Shown here in pieces: positions 51,111 to 60,372 of a DNA stretch of 64,000 nt. The stretch is from positions 1,860,001-1,924,000 of the forward strand of contig NZ_BLLN01000005.1 of the NCBI RefSeq assembly GCF_011170125.1, read 5' to 3'. This stretch comes from Streptomyces diastaticus subsp. diastaticus. Its GTDB lineage: Bacteria > Actinomycetota > Actinomycetes > Streptomycetales > Streptomycetaceae. A program made the translations under genes and the position numbers. Numbering within the stretch: position 1 is the first letter of the stretch; every line of letters starts with the position of its first letter. Below the pieces are notes generated by a model. It did not search any database, had not been told where the DNA came from, and saw only the letters and a program-made list of their open reading frames with translations.

Positions 51111-52463
51111 TCAGCCCTCGCGGTTGTCGCGCAGGAGCCGGCGGATCTCGGTGAGCGTGCGCTCGTCGAGACCGCCCCGCCCGCCGGTTCCGGTCAGGGC
51201 GTCCACCTGCTCGGCGGTACGGATGTCGTAGGCCCGCTCCTCGTCCGCGCCCGGCACCGAGCGGTACGCCTCCTTGTCGGAGAAGCCGACGACCACGTCC
51301 ACCACCTTGGCGATGAGCCAGGTGACCACGAAGGAGTAGGCGGCGACCGCGAGGATGGCGACGACCTGGCGCCACAGCAGCGAACCACCGCCCCCGTAGA
51401 AGACGCCCTCCTTGCCGGCGACGCCCTCGGTGGCGAAGAAGCCGACCATGAGCAGGCCGACCAGGCCGCCGGCGCCGTGCACGCCGACGACGTCGAGGGT
51501 GTCGTCGACGTTGATGCGGTACTTCAGGGTGATGGCGAAGGCGCAGACCAGGCCGGCGACCAGACCGGTGATCAGCGCGCCGACGGGGTCGACCTCACCA
51601 CAGGCCGGGGTGATGGCGACCATCCCGGCCACCGCCGCGGAGCCGACCCCCGTCATGGTCACCTTGCGGGTGCGCCAGTACTCCACCAGCGGCCAGGTGA
51701 CCATCGCACCGGCCGCGCCGAGCTGGGTGTTGATGAACGCGGTCGCGGCGGTGCCGGTGTCGCGGACGGCGGAGCCGGCGTTGAAGGCCAGCCAGCCGAA
51801 CCACAGCAGCGCCACACCGATCATGACCAGCGGGATGTTGTTGGGACGCGGCTCCTGTCGCCGGAAGTCCCGGGGGCCCCGGACGACCAGGGCCGCGGCC
51901 AGCCCGGCGATCCCGGAGTTCATCTCCACCGGCAGACCGCCGGCGAAGTCGAGCGCGCCCAGGTGGTGCGTGATCCACCCGCTGTCGGTGTCGAAGACCC
52001 AGTGGGCGAGCGGCACGTACACGAGCAGCAGCCACAGGGCCGAGAAGACCAGCCACCCCCGCATGGTCGCCCGGCCGGCGATCGCCCCGCTGATCAGCGC
52101 CACCGTGACGATGGCGAAGCCCATCTGGAAGGTGGCGTAGATGTACGTCGGGAAGGAGCCGGTCAGGGTGTTCGGCTCGATGTCCCACATGAGGACGTGG
52201 TCGAGGTTGCCGATCAGCCCGAGGCCCCCGACGTCCGGGCCGAAGGCGAGCGAGTACCCGATGAGGAACCAGAGGATGGTCACGAAGCACAGCGAGGCGA
52301 AGCTCATCTTGAGCATCACCAGGACGTGCTTGGTCCTGACCATGCCCCCGTAGAAGAAGGCGAGAGCCGGTGTCATCAGCAACACCATCGCCGCGGCGGC
52401 CAACATCCAGGCGGTGTCGCCCGAGTCGTAGGCCGGCGGCATGGGCGCGGGGGCGGTGATCAT
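51111..52463 (-). CDS. amt: Ammonium transporter
   Basis: 450 residues, eleven membrane segments. Family signatures include PALAFFYGGMV, GLAAALVVRGPRD, MVAITPACGEVDPVGALITG and DDTLDVVGVHGAGGLVG with the twin-His type HG motif. The ATG at 52463 is chosen because AGGAG lies about nine bases upstream; a TTG at 52469 is also in frame but too close to that site. It is the last gene of the urease operon, 26 bases after ureD, and is not followed by glnK. Here it likely recaptures ammonium made by urease. The C-terminal tail (after helix 11) is long. Confidence 0.94.
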   Translation of the reverse strand: MITAPAPMPPAYDSGDTAWMLAAAAMVLLMTPALAFFYGGMVRTKHVLVMLKMSFASLCFVTILWFLIGYSLAFGPDVGGLGLIGNLDHVLMWDIEPNTLTGSFPTYIYATFQMGFAIVTVALISGAIAGRATMRGWLVFSALWLLLVYVPLAHWVFDTDSGWITHHLGALDFAGGLPVEMNSGIAGLAAALVVRGPRDFRRQEPRPNNIPLVMIGVALLWFGWLAFNAGSAVRDTGTAATAFINTQLGAAGAMVTWPLVEYWRTRKVTMTGVGSAAVAGMVAITPACGEVDPVGALITGLVAGLVCAFAITLKYRINVDDTLDVVGVHGAGGLVGLLMVGFFATEGVAGKEGVFYGGGGSLLWRQVVAILAVAAYSFVVTWLIAKVVDVVVGFSDKEAYRSVPGADEERAYDIRTAEQVDALTGTGGRGGLDERTLTEIRRLLRDNREG

Positions 52464-52489
52464 GGACAAGGTCTCCTGATCGACGGGAC

Positions 52490-53431
52490 CTACTGTTTAC
52501 GCAGGTCGGGGGCGGGATGGCCGAGGAGCAGGCGGCGCACCGCGTCCCAGGCCGTGTGGACCGCCGCCGTGACGCACGGCTGCTCGTGGCCGAGGATCCG
52601 GGTCCAGGCCCCGCACGCCTCGGGCAGGACGCTGGTGCCGTGCAGCACGTCGGCGTCCGCCAGCGACCGGTGCAGGGTGTCGGCGATCTCCTGGGCGGGC
52701 CGCCGGGTGCTGACCACGTGGACCGAGGCGACGTGGTCGTGCCCGGCGAACACCCCGGGCCCGGTCACCCCGCCGACGTCCTCGGGACGCAGCCTCATGG
52801 TGTCCACGGCCAGCAGCGTGCCGTCCGGACGCCGGATCTCCAGGTCGCTGGTGAACACGGTGTACTCGTGCCGTTCGCCCCGCGCCAGGCGCCCGCCGGT
52901 GACCGTCTCGGCGTAGACGACCGTGGCCGTCTCGTCGGCGGTCACCACCGAGCTCTGGTGGAAGCGGGACCCGGCGAAGGGGATGACGGCGTCGGGGAGG
53001 TACTCGACGTAGGCGCCCTCACCCGCGGTCAGGTGGACCCGCTGCGTCGCGTAGTCGTGCTCCATCCGGTAGACCTTGGTGGCGGCCTGGGTCGTGAACA
53101 GGGCCTGGGTCCCCGGGCCGCACACCAGGTCCTGGCGGTAGCGGTCGGCCTGGGCGACGCCGCCCCCGGTGGCCATCACATAGGTGAAGGCCATGCCGGG
53201 GACGGCCGGGTCGACGTAGAGCGGCCGCATGATCTGCAACGGCGTCTTCTGGTAGCGGCCGACCAGTTCCGTACGGTCGCCGCGCAGGGCGAACTCCAGG
53301 TCGAGGACGCCGACCTTGGCGGGAGAGCCCGGCCCGAGCGTGTCGGGCCGGGAGGCGAGAGCCGAGACCTCCGCGGGGAGGACGGCGATTTCGTAGTGCT
53401 CGGGGGCGAGCCGGTCGCGGACGGCCCTCAC
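52490..53431 (-). CDS. ureD: Urease accessory protein UreD (UreH)
   Basis: 313 residues. Scaffold that docks on apo-urease and carries nickel from UreG/UreF. Motifs visible are LVGRYQKTPLQIMRPLYVDP, GGVAQADRYRQDL, TTQAATKVYRM, VEYLPDAVIPFAGSRF and EYTVFTSDLEI. GTG at 53431 begins two bases after the ureG stop, so it is coupled. The frame is open further upstream but that part is the ureG shadow. Probable cytosolic complex UreD-UreF-UreG. Confidence 0.92.
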   Translation of the reverse strand: MRAVRDRLAPEHYEIAVLPAEVSALASRPDTLGPGSPAKVGVLDLEFALRGDRTELVGRYQKTPLQIMRPLYVDPAVPGMAFTYVMATGGGVAQADRYRQDLVCGPGTQALFTTQAATKVYRMEHDYATQRVHLTAGEGAYVEYLPDAVIPFAGSRFHQSSVVTADETATVVYAETVTGGRLARGERHEYTVFTSDLEIRRPDGTLLAVDTMRLRPEDVGGVTGPGVFAGHDHVASVHVVSTRRPAQEIADTLHRSLADADVLHGTSVLPEACGAWTRILGHEQPCVTAAVHTAWDAVRRLLLGHPAPDLRKQ

Positions 53432-53432
53432 G

Positions 53433-54053
53433 TCACACCAGTACCGTGCGCCGGGACTCCAGGTACGCGACGACCTCGTCCACGCCCTTGCCGGAGAGGC
53501 AGTCGGTGAGCTGCACCGGCCCCTCGCCGCGCACCCGGTGGGCGTCCGACTCCATGACGTTGATGTCGGTGCGCACGTACTGGGCGATGTCGATCTTGTT
53601 GATGACCAGCAGGTCGGAGTCGGTGATGCCCGGCCCGCGCTTGCGGGGCATCTTCTCGCCCTCGGCGGTGTCCAGGACGAAGATGAAGAGATCGACCAGG
53701 GCCGGGCTGAAGGTGAGGGTGAGGTTGTCGCCGCCGCTCTCGTACAGGAGGATGTCGATGTCGGGGTGGCGCTCCAGCATCTCGGCACCGGCGGCCAGGT
53801 TCATCGTCGGATCGTCGCGCACGGCGGTGTGCGGGCAGGCCCCGGTCTCGACACCCACGATGCGGTCGCCGTCCAGGAGTCCGTCGAGGGTGCGCCGGAT
53901 GTGCTGGGCGTCCTCCTGGGTGTAGATGTCGTTGGTGATGACCCCGGGCCGGCGCCCCTGGTCGATGAGGATCGGGACGATCGCCTCGATGAGGGCGGTC
54001 TTCCCGGAACCGACGGGTCCGCCGATCCCGACCCGCAGGACGTTGTCGCGCAT
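53433..54053 (-). CDS. ureG: Urease accessory GTPase UreG
   Basis: 206 residues. SIMIBI GTPase driving nickel insertion. P-loop GIGGPVGSGKTALIE, the metal-binding ETGACPHTA (Cys-Pro-His), ESGGDNLT and VINKIDIA are all intact. ATG follows GAGAGGAAG. Located between ureF and ureD. Confidence 0.96.
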   Translation of the reverse strand: MRDNVLRVGIGGPVGSGKTALIEAIVPILIDQGRRPGVITNDIYTQEDAQHIRRTLDGLLDGDRIVGVETGACPHTAVRDDPTMNLAAGAEMLERHPDIDILLYESGGDNLTLTFSPALVDLFIFVLDTAEGEKMPRKRGPGITDSDLLVINKIDIAQYVRTDINVMESDAHRVRGEGPVQLTDCLSGKGVDEVVAYLESRRTVLV

Positions 54054-54085: not shown

Positions 54086-54832
54086 TCAGCTTGCGAAGAG
54101 CCGGGCCTCGGCCCGCTCGTGGCGGGCGGACATGACGTCCGCCGCGAAGGTGGTGGCCCCGAGGTCGCCGAGACCGCGGGCGAGTGCCCGGTCGGTGGTC
54201 TCCTCGATGACCGGGGCGGTCCGCCGCAGCAGGACCTGGGCCAGGCGGTGGTCGGTCAGCCGCAGCCGCAGCGCCGCGCCGGCGAAGCTCGCGCAGAACG
54301 CGAACAGGTCGGCGGCGACCGCCTGCCGGACGGGAACCCCCGTGGCCGCGTAGACGACTCCGGCGGCGACCGCCTGGGTCCCCGGCGCCCGGCGCGCCTC
54401 CACCTCGCGGTGGTAGCGGTCGATCCCCGGCTTCTGGAAGACCTCGGCGGCCAGGTCGAGCAGTTGGCGCCCGGTGCGGGTCGCCGCGCTGCGCATCTCG
54501 CGGTTGAGCTTGGTGGCGTTCAGCCGCTGGTCCACGGCGGTCACCGCCTCCCAGTCCCCCGCCGTCGCGGCCCGGTGGGCCAGAGCCAGCGCCGTGGCGT
54601 CGCAGGGGCCGACGCCGTGGCGCAGCAGGTCGTTCAGGAGGACCGGGAGGGATGCGCGGTCGACCGCGCCGGCCTGCGCGAACCCCTCCAGGCTGTGGGA
54701 CAGCGTGTAGAAGCCGCTGGGGAACGCCGAGTCGGTGAGCTGGAGGCTGGTCAGCAGGTGGCCCAGGGCCGTCACCGGCGTCCCCGGGCCGCGGGCGGAA
54801 CCGGCTCCCTCAGCACTCTCGTCGCGGTACAC
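54086..54832 (-). CDS. ureF: Urease accessory protein UreF
   Basis: 248 residues, helical. LQLTDSAFPSGFYTLSHSLEGF, LNATKLNREMRSAATRTGRQLL and the C-terminal R-L block fit UreF, the activator or checkpoint of UreG. GTG at 54832 is four bases after the ureC stop. A short acidic extension precedes the domain. Confidence 0.93.
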   Translation of the reverse strand: MYRDESAEGAGSARGPGTPVTALGHLLTSLQLTDSAFPSGFYTLSHSLEGFAQAGAVDRASLPVLLNDLLRHGVGPCDATALALAHRAATAGDWEAVTAVDQRLNATKLNREMRSAATRTGRQLLDLAAEVFQKPGIDRYHREVEARRAPGTQAVAAGVVYAATGVPVRQAVAADLFAFCASFAGAALRLRLTDHRLAQVLLRRTAPVIEETTDRALARGLGDLGATTFAADVMSARHERAEARLFAS

Positions 54833-54836
54833 GCGC

Positions 54837-56561
54837 TCAGGCCAGGAAGAAGAGCTGGTTGAGCGGCAGCTTCTGGGCCGGGTCGATGGTCACGACCTCG
54901 CCGTCCACCGTGACCTTGTACGTCTCGGGGTCCACCTCGATCTTCGGCAGGGTGTCGTTGCGGACCATCGAGTGCTTGCCGATGGTGCGGGTCTTGCTGA
55001 CGGGCAGCACCCTGCGTTCCAGACCGAGCCTCTCGGGCACCCCGGCCGCGATCCCGGCCTGCGACATGAAGGTGACGTGGGTGGCCTGCATCGCCTTGCC
55101 GTACTGGCCGAACGAGGGCCGGTAGTAGACCGGCTGCGGGGTGGGCAGCGAGGCGTTGGGGTCGCCCATCTGGGTCCAGGAGATGATGCCGCCCTTGATG
55201 ACCATCTTCGGCTTGGCCCCGAAGGAGTGCATGGGCCACAGGACGATGTCGGCGAGCTTGCCGGTCTCCAGCGAGCCGACGTGGTCGGAGATGCCGCAGG
55301 CGATGGCGGGGTTGATGGTGACCTTGGCCAGGTAGCGCAGCACCCGCTCGTTGTCGTTGCGCGCGGAGTCCTCGGGCAGCGGCCCGAACGCCTCCTTGCA
55401 CACGTGCGCGATCTGGAAGGAGCGGGTCACGGACTCGCCGACGCGGCCCATCGCCTGGGAGTCGGAGGAGACGATGCTGATGATGCCCCGGTCGTGCAGG
55501 ACGGTCTCGGCGGCGATCGTCTCGGCACGCACCCGGCTGTCGGCGAAGGCGACGTCCTCGGGGATGTCGTGGCTGAGGTGGTGGCAGACCATCACCATGT
55601 CGAGCAGCTCGTCCACGGAGTTCTTCGTGTACGGCAGCGTCGGGTTGGTGGAGGAGGGGAGCATGTTCGGCTCGCCGGTGACGCGCAGGATGTCCGGCGC
55701 GTGGCCGCCGCCCGCCCCTTCGCTGTGGAAGGTGTGGATGGTCCGGCCGTTGATCGCCGAGCGGGTGTCCTCGAAGAAGCCGCCCTCGTTGAGGGTGTCC
55801 GTGTGGATGGCCACCTGGACGTCGTGCCGGTCGGCGACGGAGAGCGAGTTGTCGATGACCGCGGGCGTCGAGCCCCAGTCCTCGTGGACCTTGAGCGCGG
55901 CGGCGCCGGCCACGATCTGTTCGTCGAGGGCCTCGGGGCGGCTGCCGTTGCCCTTGGCCATGACACCGAGGTTGACCGGCAGGTCCTCGGCGGACTGAAG
56001 GATGCGGGCCAGGTTGAAGGGGCCCGGGGTGCAGGTCGTGCCGTTGGTGCCGTCGGTGGGGCCGGTGCCGCCGCCGAAGAGCGTGGTGATGCCGTTGCTG
56101 AGGGCCTGCTCGCACTGTTGCGGCGAGATGAGGTGGACGTGGGAGTCCATCGCCCCGGCGGTGGCGATCAGGTGCTCCCCGGCGATGACCTCGGTGCCCG
56201 TGCCGACGACCAGGCGCGGGTGCACGCCGTCCTGGGTCTGCGGGTTGCCGGCCTTGCCGATGCCCGCGATGAACCCGTCCTTGACGCCGATGTCGCACTT
56301 GATCACGCCGAGCACCGGGTCCATGACCACGGCGTTGGTGATGACCAGGTCCAGGGCGCCCTGGGCGGCGGTGGCCTGGGGGTCGGAGGACATGCCGTCG
56401 CGCATCGTCTTGCCGCCGCCGTACACCACCTCGTCCCCGTACGAGCCCTCGCGCACGTCCTTCTCGACCTCTACGACGAGATTGGTGTCGGCGAGCCGGA
56501 ACCTGTCGCCCACGGTGGGGCCGAAGAGGTCGGCGTACTGCTTGCGGGAGAGGGTCGGCAT
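54837..56561 (-). CDS. ureC: Urease alpha subunit
   Basis: 574 residues, full length, hydrolyses urea to ammonia and carbamate. The carbamylated Lys is in [11 protein letters not shown]. Nickel ligands are the His pair of SHVHLI, IHTDT, the His of [14 protein letters not shown] and the Asp of SSDSQAM. The flap Cys is in [26 protein letters not shown] is conserved. ATG two bases after the ureB stop. Cytosolic, assembled with UreA and UreB. Confidence 0.98.
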
Positions 56562-56562
56562 G

Positions 56563-57030
56563 TCAGTGGGATCCCTTCTTGTTCTTCTTGGCCTCGCTCT
56601 TGTCCGAGTCCGCGCCCTTGTGGCCGGTGGGCCCGGCGTTGATCTGCCGGCCGTCGGCGCGGGCGCCGAGGAAGCCCAGCCGCTCGGCCCGGCTCACCGC
56701 CTCCGCGCAGGCGGTCTGCGAGCGGACGCTGCCGTTGAGCAGGCCGCTGAAGCCGTGCAGCCGGCCGGTGCCGGCGTAGGTGCACAGTTCGACCTCGTGG
56801 GTGCCGCCGGGCTCGAAGCGGACGGCGGTGCCGGCGGCGATGTTGAGGTGCATGCCGATCGTGGCGTCGCGGTCGAAGTCCAGCGCGGAGTTGGCCTCGA
56901 AGAAGTGGTAGTCGGAGCCCACCTGGACCGCGCGGTCACCGGTGTTGCGGACGGTGACCTTCAGGGTGGGGCGACCGGCGTTGATCTCGATCGGTTCGTC
57001 GGCGTACTGGTAGCGCGGGGGAAGCGTCAT
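56563..57030 (-). CDS. ureB: Urease beta subunit with Lys-rich C-terminal extension
   Basis: 155 residues, about 50 more than a standard UreB. The core has [53 protein letters not shown] and [12 protein letters not shown]. After that come about 50 residues with [19 protein letters not shown] and a charged end ([14 protein letters not shown]). The ATG overlaps the upstream His-rich gene stop (ATGA). The extension may be a docking tail; similar long forms exist in some Streptomyces, as I recall. Confidence 0.95.
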
Positions 57031-58061
57031 CGCGGACTCCTGTGTGAGGGGACGAGGTCGGGAGCGGATCCCTGATGCTCGACGGGGGACTCCCCCGCCG
57101 TCCTCGGTGCGGGGGACAGTGCCCGGTGGTGGTCGCCACCGCCGTCCGGGCCGTGGCCGTGGCCGTCGTCGGCACCGTGGGAGTGACTGTGGCCGTGCCC
57201 GTGCCCGTGCCCGTGGCTGTGCCCGTGGCCGTGGGCGTGGCTGTGGGCGTGACCGTGGCCATGGCTGTGGCCGTGCCCGTGGTCGTCCGGGCCGTGGCTG
57301 TGGGCGTGACCGTGGCCATGGCTGTGGCCGTGCCCGTGGTCGTCCGGGCCGTGGCTGTGGGCGTGACCGTGGTCGTGGTCCGCGGCCAGGGCGCGGTCCA
57401 CTCCGTCGTCGCCGGAGCGCTCGTACCGCTCCCGTGCCTGGCGGACCCGCGAGGCGAGCACCCCGGCGGCGGCGGACGCCGACAGCAGCGGCCCGCCGTA
57501 CTCGGCGTGCGCCACGCCCGCCGGCTCCGGCACCGCCCAGGCGGCCGGCAGCACGACGGCGCCCGGCGCGCCGAGCGCACGGCAGCGCCACACGCCCTCC
57601 GCCAGGTCCGGAGCGCCGCCGAGCAGGGCGACCTCGACGACGCGGTGCCGCCCGTACTGGCCCACCAGGCGGGCGGTGCGGAAGAGGTCGGCGTCGCTGA
57701 ACGGGTCGCCCGAGGGGGCGGTGACCAGCAGGGCCCGGTCGTCGGGGACCCGGTTGGCCAGCGTGCGCAGCCAGCCGACGAGGTGAGCGGTGGTGCCGAA
57801 CGGCTCGGCCAGCAGGGTGCCGGCCCGCTCTCCCGCGTCGAGGGCGAGCAGGGTGCGGGCGGCGTCGGCGACGAGGGAGGGATCCCGTCCGAGGGTCATC
57901 GGCACCACGCAGACCCGTTCCCCGGCGGCCCGAGCGGAGCGGACCTCGCGGACCAGCTCCCGCCCGCCGCCCACGCGGGTGACCTCGGGTCCCAGCACGC
58001 CGGCCAGGGCGGCCGCCCCGTCGCTCTCGTGACCGCCGACCGCGATCACCCGGTCGGTCAT
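57027..58061 (-). CDS. CbiX-like protein with poly-His tail, in the urease operon
   Basis: 344 residues. The N-terminal ~225 residues look like a CbiX/SirB chelatase fold: VIAVGGHES at the start, [31 protein letters not shown] and a repeat-like second half. The canonical chelatase His positions are only partly kept (His in GGHES). Residues about 228-315 are a His-Gly-His-Ser-rich tail with about 35 His, a strong divalent-metal binder. The start is one base after ureA and the stop overlaps ureB. No UreE is present in the operon, so it is the best candidate nickel store or chaperone. Chelatase activity is uncertain. Confidence 0.85.
57241..57372 (-). repeat. 57-base tandem repeat coding the His-rich tail
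   Basis: Two exact 57-base units (57241-57297 and 57298-57354) and a partial third (57355-57372). 57 is divisible by three, so each unit adds 19 residues, and loss or gain keeps the frame. Likely to vary in copy number by slippage. Confidence 0.9.
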
Positions 58062-58062
58062 C

Positions 58063-58368
58063 TCAGCCGCCGATGGGGTCGTGGCAGGAGACGAGCTTGT
58101 TGCCGTCGTCGAAGGTGGCCTCCACCTGGAGCAGCGGAAGCATCTCGCGCACTCCCGGCATGGTGCCGTCCTCGTCGACCACGTGCCGGCCCAGCTCCAT
58201 GCAGTCGGCGACGCTCTTGCCGTCGCGGGCCCCCTCCAGGATGGCTTCGGTGATCAGCGCCACGGACTCGCTGTAGTTGAGCTTCAGCCCACGTTCGCGG
58301 CGCTTGTGGGCCAGGTCGGCCACGACGTAGATGAGGAGCTTGTCGATTTCCCGGGGTGCAAGGTTCAT
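58063..58368 (-). CDS. ureA: Urease gamma subunit
   Basis: 101 residues, the normal length for UreA. Motifs [38 protein letters not shown] and [17 protein letters not shown] are intact. ATG 42 bases after the urea transporter stop; it is followed one base later by the His-rich CbiX-like gene. Confidence 0.97.
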
Positions 58369-58410: not shown

Positions 58411-59388
58411 TCAGGACTTGTCGTCGGCGATCAGGGTGATCCGCGGCAGCAGCGGCACCGCCGCCAGCAGCGCCCAGGTGGTGATGTTGAAAGGCCAGGT
58501 GAAGGTGTGGCTGCCGAAGACCTTGAAGAGCACCGACAAGGAGGCCGTCAGGCCGGTGCTGGCAGCGGCGGCCACCACGGTGTAGAGGTGGTTCCACGGG
58601 GTGGACCGCAGCAGGACCACGCCGAAGGCGAGGCTGGTGAGGACGGCGTTGTAGCCGTAGATCCCCTCGCCGATCAGGGCCGCGGGGGCGCCGAGGGCCC
58701 ACGCGGTGAGCAGACCGACGACGCTGCCGATCACGGCGAAGATCCCGACTTTCCAGCCCGCGAGGAAGAGGCCGACCAGCATGATCAGGCCCACGTACCA
58801 GGTGCCGGCGAAGAAGATCTGCGAGAAGTTGGCGAAGAAGCCCTGCCACAGGTCGGTCCAGCTCACGACGGGGCTCTTGGGGACGGCCGGGGTGATCGCC
58901 GTCGCCGGAGTACCGTGCCAGACCCGCTCGAAGGACGGCGCCCCCAGGACCATGACGAGCGCCACGAAGCAGAAGGGCCCGGTGAACGCCTTCAGCCCGA
59001 AGGGGGCCAGCAGGCGGCCGAGGGTCGCGGTGACCAGGGTGCACATGACGGCGGCGACGACGGCCAGGACGTAGCTGGACGGGTGGTTCCCCAGGTAGAC
59101 CACGATCGCGATGGCGCCCAGGACACCGCAGTAGGACATCAGGCCCTGGGTGACGGTGTCGTGGTGGACGTTCAGGAACTGGGCGGTGAGCGTCGAGACC
59201 ACCGCGCCGATCGTCGCGAACAGGCCCATCTCCCAGCTCTCCACCCACAGGGCGGCCAGGATCAGCAGCGAGGTCCACACGCTGGGCTGGAAGTCCACCT
59301 GCCCCACGCCGCGCAGAGAACCGAGCCCGAACGGCTTCAGGCCGGTCGGGGCCGGAGCGGCCTCGGGCGTCACGGACGGTGAGGCCAC
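58411..59388 (-). CDS. Urea transporter (UT family)
   Basis: 325 residues, about ten membrane helices in two inverted halves. Typical segments are GVGQVDFQPSVWTSLLILAAL, GLMSYCGVLGAIAIVVYLG, GVGQ-like FFAGTWYVGLIMLVGLFLAG and GIYGYNAVLTSLAFG. GTG at 59388 has AAGGAG five bases upstream (complement of 59394-59399); the longer frame adds a non-membrane Arg-rich head. It is first in the nine-gene urea operon and provides passive urea entry. Confidence 0.9.
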   Translation of the reverse strand: MASPSVTPEAAPAPTGLKPFGLGSLRGVGQVDFQPSVWTSLLILAALWVESWEMGLFATIGAVVSTLTAQFLNVHHDTVTQGLMSYCGVLGAIAIVVYLGNHPSSYVLAVVAAVMCTLVTATLGRLLAPFGLKAFTGPFCFVALVMVLGAPSFERVWHGTPATAITPAVPKSPVVSWTDLWQGFFANFSQIFFAGTWYVGLIMLVGLFLAGWKVGIFAVIGSVVGLLTAWALGAPAALIGEGIYGYNAVLTSLAFGVVLLRSTPWNHLYTVVAAAASTGLTASLSVLFKVFGSHTFTWPFNITTWALLAAVPLLPRITLIADDKS

Positions 59389-59491
59389 TGATTCTCCTTC
59401 GATGAGCCGGAAATACGCCGAACGGGGTGCGCCCGCAGTGCCCCGGGCACGGCGAAGAAGCCAGACGAGGAGCACCGGATAGCGTGACCAT

Positions 59492-59998
59492 ATGCACCTT
59501 TTGGGCGGTACGCACCTCCATCCACACCCTGATCACTCACCCGGCTCACAACTCCCCGTCGTCGCCGTGGTCGCCCTCGGGGGGGCCGTGGGGGCCGCCC
59601 TCCGCTACGGCGCGGGCCGCATCTGGCGCAACGGCTCCGACGCCGCGCTGCTGTGGCACGAGGGCACGGCCGCCTTCCCGTGGACGACGCTGCTGGTCAA
59701 CGTCGTGGGCTGCTTCCTCATGGGCGTACTCGCCGTCGCCCTCAAGGAGCGCTTCACCGGCGCCCCCCGGCTGCTCAACCCGATGCTGGGCACCGGGGTG
59801 CTCGGCGGTTTCACCACCTTCTCCTCGTACACCGACGACGCACGGCGGCTCATCGAGAACGACCAGCCGCTGACCGCTGTCGGCTACCTGCTGCTGACGG
59901 TGGCCGCCTGTCTGGTGGGCATCGCCCTCGGGGTGGCGCTGACCCGCCTGGTGCTCACCGGCGCGGTGGCGGAGAACCGGCACGAGGGCGGTGCCTGA
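59492..59998 (+). CDS. crcB: Fluoride channel CrcB/Fluc (first subunit)
   Basis: 168 residues, four helices. Family features LVNVVGCFLMGVLA, GVLGGFTTFSSYTDDA and GALRYGAG-like GAALRYGAGRIW. A His-rich N-terminus (HLHPHPDHS) is unusual. TAGCGT at 59480-59485 lies six bases before the ATG, so the transcript is probably leaderless. Its stop overlaps the second crcB by one base; paired genes usually make a heterodimeric channel that exports F-. Confidence 0.93.
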   Translation: MHLLGGTHLHPHPDHSPGSQLPVVAVVALGGAVGAALRYGAGRIWRNGSDAALLWHEGTAAFPWTTLLVNVVGCFLMGVLAVALKERFTGAPRLLNPMLGTGVLGGFTTFSSYTDDARRLIENDQPLTAVGYLLLTVAACLVGIALGVALTRLVLTGAVAENRHEGGA

Positions 59999-60372
59999 TG
60001 GGTGAGTGGTTCCTCGTCCTGGCCGGCGGAGCCGTCGGCGCGCCCGCCCGCTACCTGATCGGCGTGGCGGCCCGCGACCGTCTGCCCGCCTCCTTCCACT
60101 GGGGCACCTTCCTGGCCAACATGGCCGCCGCCCTGCTCCTGGGCTTCCTCGTCCAGGCCGGGACCCAGGGCGCGCTCGGCGCGACCGGGCAGGCCCTGCT
60201 GTCCACCGGCTTCTGCGGCGCCCTGTCCACCTGGTCCACCTTCTCCAAGGAGGTGCTGGCCCTGACGGACGCCCGGCGCCTCGCCCGGGCCGGCGGCTAC
60301 CTGCTGGCCACGGTCGCCTTCGGGCTCGGCCTGTCGTTCGCGGGCGGTGCGCTGGCCCAGGCCATCTGGTGA
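59998..60372 (+). CDS. crcB: Fluoride channel CrcB/Fluc (second subunit)
   Basis: 124 residues. GAVGAPARYLIGV, GTFLANMAAALLLGFL and STGFCGALSTWSTFSKE. TGATG overlap with the first copy. The central channel asparagine is conserved as FLANM; the Phe and Thr/Ser tracks are present. Forms a pair with the preceding protein. The next gene starts in its stop codon. Confidence 0.93.
   Translation: MGEWFLVLAGGAVGAPARYLIGVAARDRLPASFHWGTFLANMAAALLLGFLVQAGTQGALGATGQALLSTGFCGALSTWSTFSKEVLALTDARRLARAGGYLLATVAFGLGLSFAGGALAQAIW

Follow-up and report, generated by a model that had tools for sequence, protein, structure and literature searches.

Urease is a nickel enzyme, and in the systems described elsewhere the nickel hand-over step is thought to be done by UreE or by a His stretch of UreG. 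UreE is encoded with the urease genes. SirB and CfbA, both class II chelatases, are among the closest known systems to the protein described here, and the metal-binding His pair of SirB is His10 and His76. His tails bind several metals. The passages on UreE in one paper describe nickel binding by a conserved His of the core, located at the dimer interface, and, in some species, a His-rich C-terminal tail, which in Klebsiella is unnecessary for activation (PMC7055735). UreE-less activation has been explained, with exceptions left over, by a His stretch on the GTPase UreG, proposed to make up for the missing UreE; the same published survey reported the stretch in all but two of its genomes without UreE (PMC2770081). 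CbiXL, the cobaltochelatase of Bacillus megaterium, is portrayed in the account of that enzyme as a two-lobed class II chelatase acting on sirohydrochlorin, with both active-site His in the N-terminal domain, an Fe-S centre in the extension, and a long His-rich C-terminal region for which a role in storing and delivering metal has been put forward (PMC7689651).

We analysed a window of 64,000 nucleotides from Streptomyces diastaticus subsp. diastaticus, in which a gene here called X lies within a urease operon. The ORF and its translation gave a protein of 344 aa encoded on the minus strand at 57027..58061, with an ATG start at 58061. The features of the locus are as follows.

51111..52469, minus strand: ammonium transporter (Pfam)
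52490..53380, minus strand: ureD, start not fixed (Pfam)
53433..54053, minus strand: ureG, without an N-terminal His stretch (Pfam)
54086..54832, minus strand: ureF (Pfam)
54837..56561, minus strand: ureC, urease alpha (Pfam)
56563..57030, minus strand: ureB, urease beta with a C-terminal extension (Pfam)
57027..58061, minus strand: X, His-tailed protein with a predicted class II chelatase fold, 344 aa (ORF, predicted structure match)
57037..57041, minus strand: AGGAG, likely ureB ribosome-binding site inside the 3' end of X, coding for most of the conserved C-terminal Arg-Ser
57126..57377, minus strand: His-rich tail, residues 229-312, 35 His in 84 aa, overlapping a 57-bp tandem repeat (sequence count)
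57420..58061, minus strand: X core, residues 1-214, predicted chelatase fold (predicted structure, profile comparison)
57783..57785, minus strand: His93, H in 74/74 urease-linked and 0/6 unlinked copies (alignment)
58029..58031, minus strand: His11, chelatase metal-ligand position kept, aligned with the first ligand His of canonical SirB/CbiX (alignment)
58063..58368, minus strand: ureA, urease gamma (Pfam)
58411..59475, minus strand: urea transporter (Pfam)

Pfam assigned ureA, ureB, ureC, ureF, ureG and ureD around X, with the urea transporter upstream and the ammonium transporter downstream of the urease genes. X is separated from ureA by one base (the last base of the ureA stop codon is at 58063), and its TGA stop (57027-57029) shares bases with the ureB ATG (57028-57030) as ATGA. 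The coordinates agree with an earlier sequence-only reading, which had placed X one base after ureA with its stop overlapping the ureB start. A whole-genome search showed a single urease (one UreC) in the 7.08-Mb host genome. With some UreE proteins, X shares a His-rich tail and encoding in the urease operon, a likeness in working features only; X has a predicted chelatase fold instead of the UreE domain.

The model of X residues 1-227 (pLDDT 95.5, pTM 0.91) matched SirB, CbiK, CbiX and CfbA, and the core is confidently predicted to have the two-lobed class II chelatase fold of these proteins. Profile-profile comparison of X with canonical SirB/CbiX gave an E value of 5e-6 and a probability of 86. 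The window X protein gave no CbiX family match at the thresholds used (the curated CbiX cut-off was not reached), and PF01903 was carried by two of the best 120 of 299 listed homologues (P0087 and P0117). Solved structures searched with the X profile yielded six weak matches, the best at E 0.11 and none a chelatase by name; the top ones fall on the His-rich part.

The first ligand His of the SirB pair is kept in X as His11, which was present in 72 of 74 urease-linked copies (the exceptions are one Tyr and one gap). All 20 canonical Streptomyces SirB/CbiX proteins in the alignment carry the second ligand His, whereas none of the 71 aligned X sequences, and none of the 80 loci described below, has His at the corresponding position of X (residue 62). 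With one ligand of the metal-binding pair missing throughout the 80 loci, tetrapyrrole chelation by X is unlikely. The CbiX/SirB label of the sequence-only reading thus stands for the fold, on the profile comparison and the model, and falls for the catalytic metal site. X shares with CbiXL the two-lobed class II chelatase fold, as predicted, and a long His-rich region at the C-terminus; unlike CbiXL, X is without the second His, carries a His93 and is located in a urease operon. His93 is specific to the family; in the model it is placed at the start of a helix, after the loop trailing a core strand. The X core as a whole was conserved across relatives. A separate canonical SirB/CbiX gene is present in the same genome (L001:1450-2223, with PF01903 twice); it follows an ORF that by eye resembles an ABC transporter permease.

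X contains 41 His in total, 35 of them in the 84-residue tail, close to the ~35 His in ~88 residues given earlier. At the DNA level the tail is a tandem repeat with a 57-bp unit (57183-57372, 3.4 copies, 91% matches), and close relatives named S. albidoflavus have shorter X proteins of 311-315 aa; the two observations together suggest that tail length may vary by slippage. Across relatives the tail was long, variable in length and built of repeats. At least 10 His in some 40-aa stretch were found in 115 of the best 120 of 299 listed homologues, and in none of 120 canonical SirB/CbiX proteins among the matches listed. Three X frames (L071, L161 and L162) have no usual stop and run through ureB, in a different frame, into ureC. 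The tail of L162 translates into Thr/Ala repeats, pointing to a frameshift in the His repeat or to an error in its sequence.

Among the best 120 of 299 homologues listed in the protein search, the named ones were mostly from Streptomyces, with some from Kitasatospora and Embleya, and those nearest to X were from Streptomyces albidoflavus. Their public names were mostly CbiX or sirohydrochlorin chelatase, with a few hypothetical proteins. A scan of named genomes gave 108 relatives, in hosts including Streptomyces, Kitasatospora, Catenulispora, Microtetraspora, Actinomadura, Rhodococcus and Prescottella, and the gene context was examined for the best 80 of the 108. X was linked to urease genes in 74 of these 80 loci. 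The order ureA-X-ureB was found in 64; seven more have ureA before X and then the contig end, one begins at X followed by ureB (L068), one is rearranged (L081), and one (L067) carries X with ureF, ureG and ureD and no ureABC. The remaining six copies lie away from urease genes. The L067 locus reads urea transporter-X-ureF-ureG-ureD-amt (L067:4895-10871), and in the same genome, that of Streptomyces sp. A 4/2, there is a complete X operon (L016) as well.

X overlapped ureB in 27 of the 64 ureA-X-ureB loci, in keeping with the earlier suggestion that X is made in step with the structural subunits. The C-terminus of all 27 overlapping X proteins is Arg-Ser-x-x (Gly-Ser-x-x in L028), read from an AGGAG stretch (GGGAG in L028) that resembles a ribosome-binding site ahead of ureB. 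In the 37 non-overlapping loci this ending occurred once, and His was found within the last three residues in 31. As the motif is encoded by the stretch ahead of ureB, its conservation at the C-terminus probably mirrors a DNA signal, not protein function. A chance or wrong-frame ORF is ruled out by conservation across loci, as both position and tail recur in related loci. Judged by sequence and gene context, X is a real urease-dedicated accessory protein family over several actinobacterial families, and it is probably misannotated. The data further suggest that the annotation as CbiX or sirohydrochlorin chelatase is wrong for many Streptomyces proteins.

The six copies outside urease operons, a small sample with four from one genus, come from Embleya (L033), Catenulispora (L064, L076, L078 and L082) and an uncultured actinomycete (L083). 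Their tails contain 1-4 His in 6/6 cases vs. 6-75 in 64/64 complete linked copies, a count that omits 10 of the 80 rows (seven truncated at a contig end, one containing N and two in which the frame runs on). Position 93 was His in 74/74 linked and 0/6 unlinked copies, which have L, Q or D instead. His93 was the sole core position invariant in the other 65 alignment rows, 43 of them proteins compared by sequence only, yet absent in all six unlinked copies; positions 30, 90 and 201 showed weaker shifts between unlinked and other rows. The earlier claim that X is devoted to urease is supported by the linkage and by the tail and core His kept in linked and absent in unlinked copies. A seventh unlinked copy, from Embleya (L159), has Gln at position 93 and no His tail; L160, with an X of the same length as that of L033, was left out of the unlinked count. 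The X tree, which is unrooted, implied at least three changes between linked and unlinked states, and the nesting of unlinked copies among linked ones suggests loss. Two Catenulispora species carry two unlinked copies each in their genome (L064:1103-1855, L076:4188-4940, L078:6001-6759 and L082:6001-6753); all four copies are without the His-rich tail and His93, and three have acidic residues at the C-terminus.

The operon had been noted as lacking UreE, and a normal ureE elsewhere in the genome that fully accounted for nickel delivery would have counted against the proposal. The whole genome, with all first-look candidates scored, gave no UreE_N match. HypB gave three matches in this genome, none above the cut-off and the best being ureG of the X operon, and no NicO nickel transporter was found there. 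The UreE family was not among the matches of X at E up to 1. We surveyed 150 Streptomycetaceae genomes and a class-wide sample of 296; for X and UreE only part of each genome's first-look candidates was scored, so that misses are possible in the following counts. The 150 Streptomycetaceae had UreE_N in none, urease in 144 and a strong X match (at least 198 bits) in 32, two of the latter being of the unlinked type. Some X match at E up to 0.001 was detected in 97 of 150; the weaker of these matches lie mainly on the C-terminal part, and we regard them as other chelatases. In the class-wide sample, X was found in two genomes (E up to 1e-15), urease above cut-off in 128, and UreE_N above cut-off in five (six at E up to 0.001). 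The absence of UreE alone therefore says little, as most Streptomycetaceae lack X as well. Missing UreE, on which the sequence-only reading had leaned, is not specific to X. A simple replacement of missing UreE by X was rejected on the same counts.

The N-terminus of UreG was more informative. In 65 of 67 X-operon UreGs, a start codon lies 9-13 residues ahead of the P-loop. At least three His in the 34 residues before the P-loop were found in 5/67 X operons, 0/5 UreE operons and 30/51 operons with neither. In the five X operons concerned (L018, L024, L028, L042 and L080), these His lie upstream of the P-loop-proximal start codon, and an upstream start is possible in L018 and L024. Three genomes have two ureases (L112/L140, L113/L139 and L114/L141); in each, UreG is short with 0-1 His in that region in the UreE operon, and extended with 3-4 His in the UreE-less one. 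By these counts X operons look like UreE operons in their short, mostly His-poor UreG. In the X operon a separate protein, instead of the GTPase, bears the His-rich part. The argument for X from a short UreG without His stretch is better than that from UreE absence. No general rule by which a urease operon must have UreE, X or a His-rich UreG holds: 21 of the 51 operons that have neither UreE nor X break it under the His count applied, and urease seems able to manage without all three.

In the UreC tree, all 30 X-linked rows (thinned by hand from the 66 available) fell in one clade with an SH-aLRT of 96, obtained by a quick method without bootstrap. Four X-less Streptomycetaceae UreC rows were nested inside this X-type clade. 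Two of them, the sisters L100 and L103, have a UreG with a His-rich extension. L101 and L102 have a UreG without one, in genomes with three and four UreC matches. Counted as cases, the four rows give one in which a His-rich UreG seems to compensate and one or two in which nothing of the kind is seen.

We lean towards reading X as a nickel metallochaperone for urease that descends from a sirohydrochlorin chelatase. The analysis shows the fold by prediction, the operon position, the missing second chelatase ligand, and that tail and His93 are both lacking outside urease operons; the ancestry, the identity of the metal as nickel, its transfer to UreG and the His11/His93 site are inferred. X would have kept the two-lobed chelatase fold and His11, without the second chelatase His and with the family-specific His93 in addition. 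The His tail would gather nickel, a core site proposed to consist of His11 and His93 would hold it, and the nickel would be handed to UreG within the UreD-UreF-UreG-apourease complex. The metallochaperone reading is supported by the linkage in 74 of 80 loci, including L067, by the split in tail and His93 between linked and unlinked copies, by the short, mostly His-poor UreG of X operons, by the lack of UreE_N and of HypB above cut-off in the host genome, and by the His-rich UreG extension in the X-less L100/L103 lineage. It is weakened by L101 and L102, which have neither X nor a His-rich UreG, by the 21 of 51 operons that show none of the three donors on the His count applied, by the two linked copies without His11, and by the small number of unlinked copies.

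A role of X limited to buffering nickel or storing it against toxicity, with X made together with urease and its core a scaffold without specific transfer to UreG, is unlikely in our estimate. A long, length-variable, repeat-built tail is what would be expected of a sponge, some UreE-less operons show no His-rich donor, and the UreE passages of PMC7055735 give the Klebsiella His tail as dispensable for urease activation. A store, however, leaves unexplained the core His93 of 74/74 linked vs. 0/6 unlinked copies, and the conservation of the core. Nickel specificity is weakened by the binding of several metals by His tails, and handling of zinc, cobalt or copper would fit such a tail. The position of X exactly between two small structural genes, with overlap of ureB in 27/64 loci, would suit a UreA/UreB assembly factor whose tail is secondary. 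Both proposals taken together are quite improbable, as urease is a nickel enzyme and the X of L067, next to ureF, ureG and ureD and without ureABC, fits a metal-delivery partner better than an assembly factor. The chelatase fold, the conserved His11 and the public names CbiX and sirohydrochlorin chelatase might point to a working sirohydrochlorin-type chelatase in an incidental operon position. This is very improbable, and tetrapyrrole chelation was rejected as the main reading: the second ligand His is missing in 71/71 aligned X sequences and in the 80 loci, a canonical SirB/CbiX gene lies elsewhere in the genome, and no tetrapyrrole gene was among the operon genes identified.

If it is a metallochaperone, X is a concrete candidate donor for one operon group with neither UreE nor a UreG His stretch; it would link chelatases to protein metallation, and His11, His93 and the tail are the residues of interest. 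We judge it evenly balanced whether a chelatase fold has been turned into a protein metallochaperone that loads nickel into urease via a tail-fed His11/His93 site, which would make X a third kind of urease nickel donor after UreE and the His-stretch UreG. We found no description of X in the open-licence papers searched, in line with the earlier claim that it was undescribed, and one may exist elsewhere.

Two minor observations concern the neighbours of X. The urease beta Pfam match of UreB (56563-57030) stops at residue 100 of 155, and the extension beyond it has a Lys-rich end. Beside the urea transporter, at 59492-60372, are two small tandem membrane proteins with a resemblance to CrcB fluoride channels.
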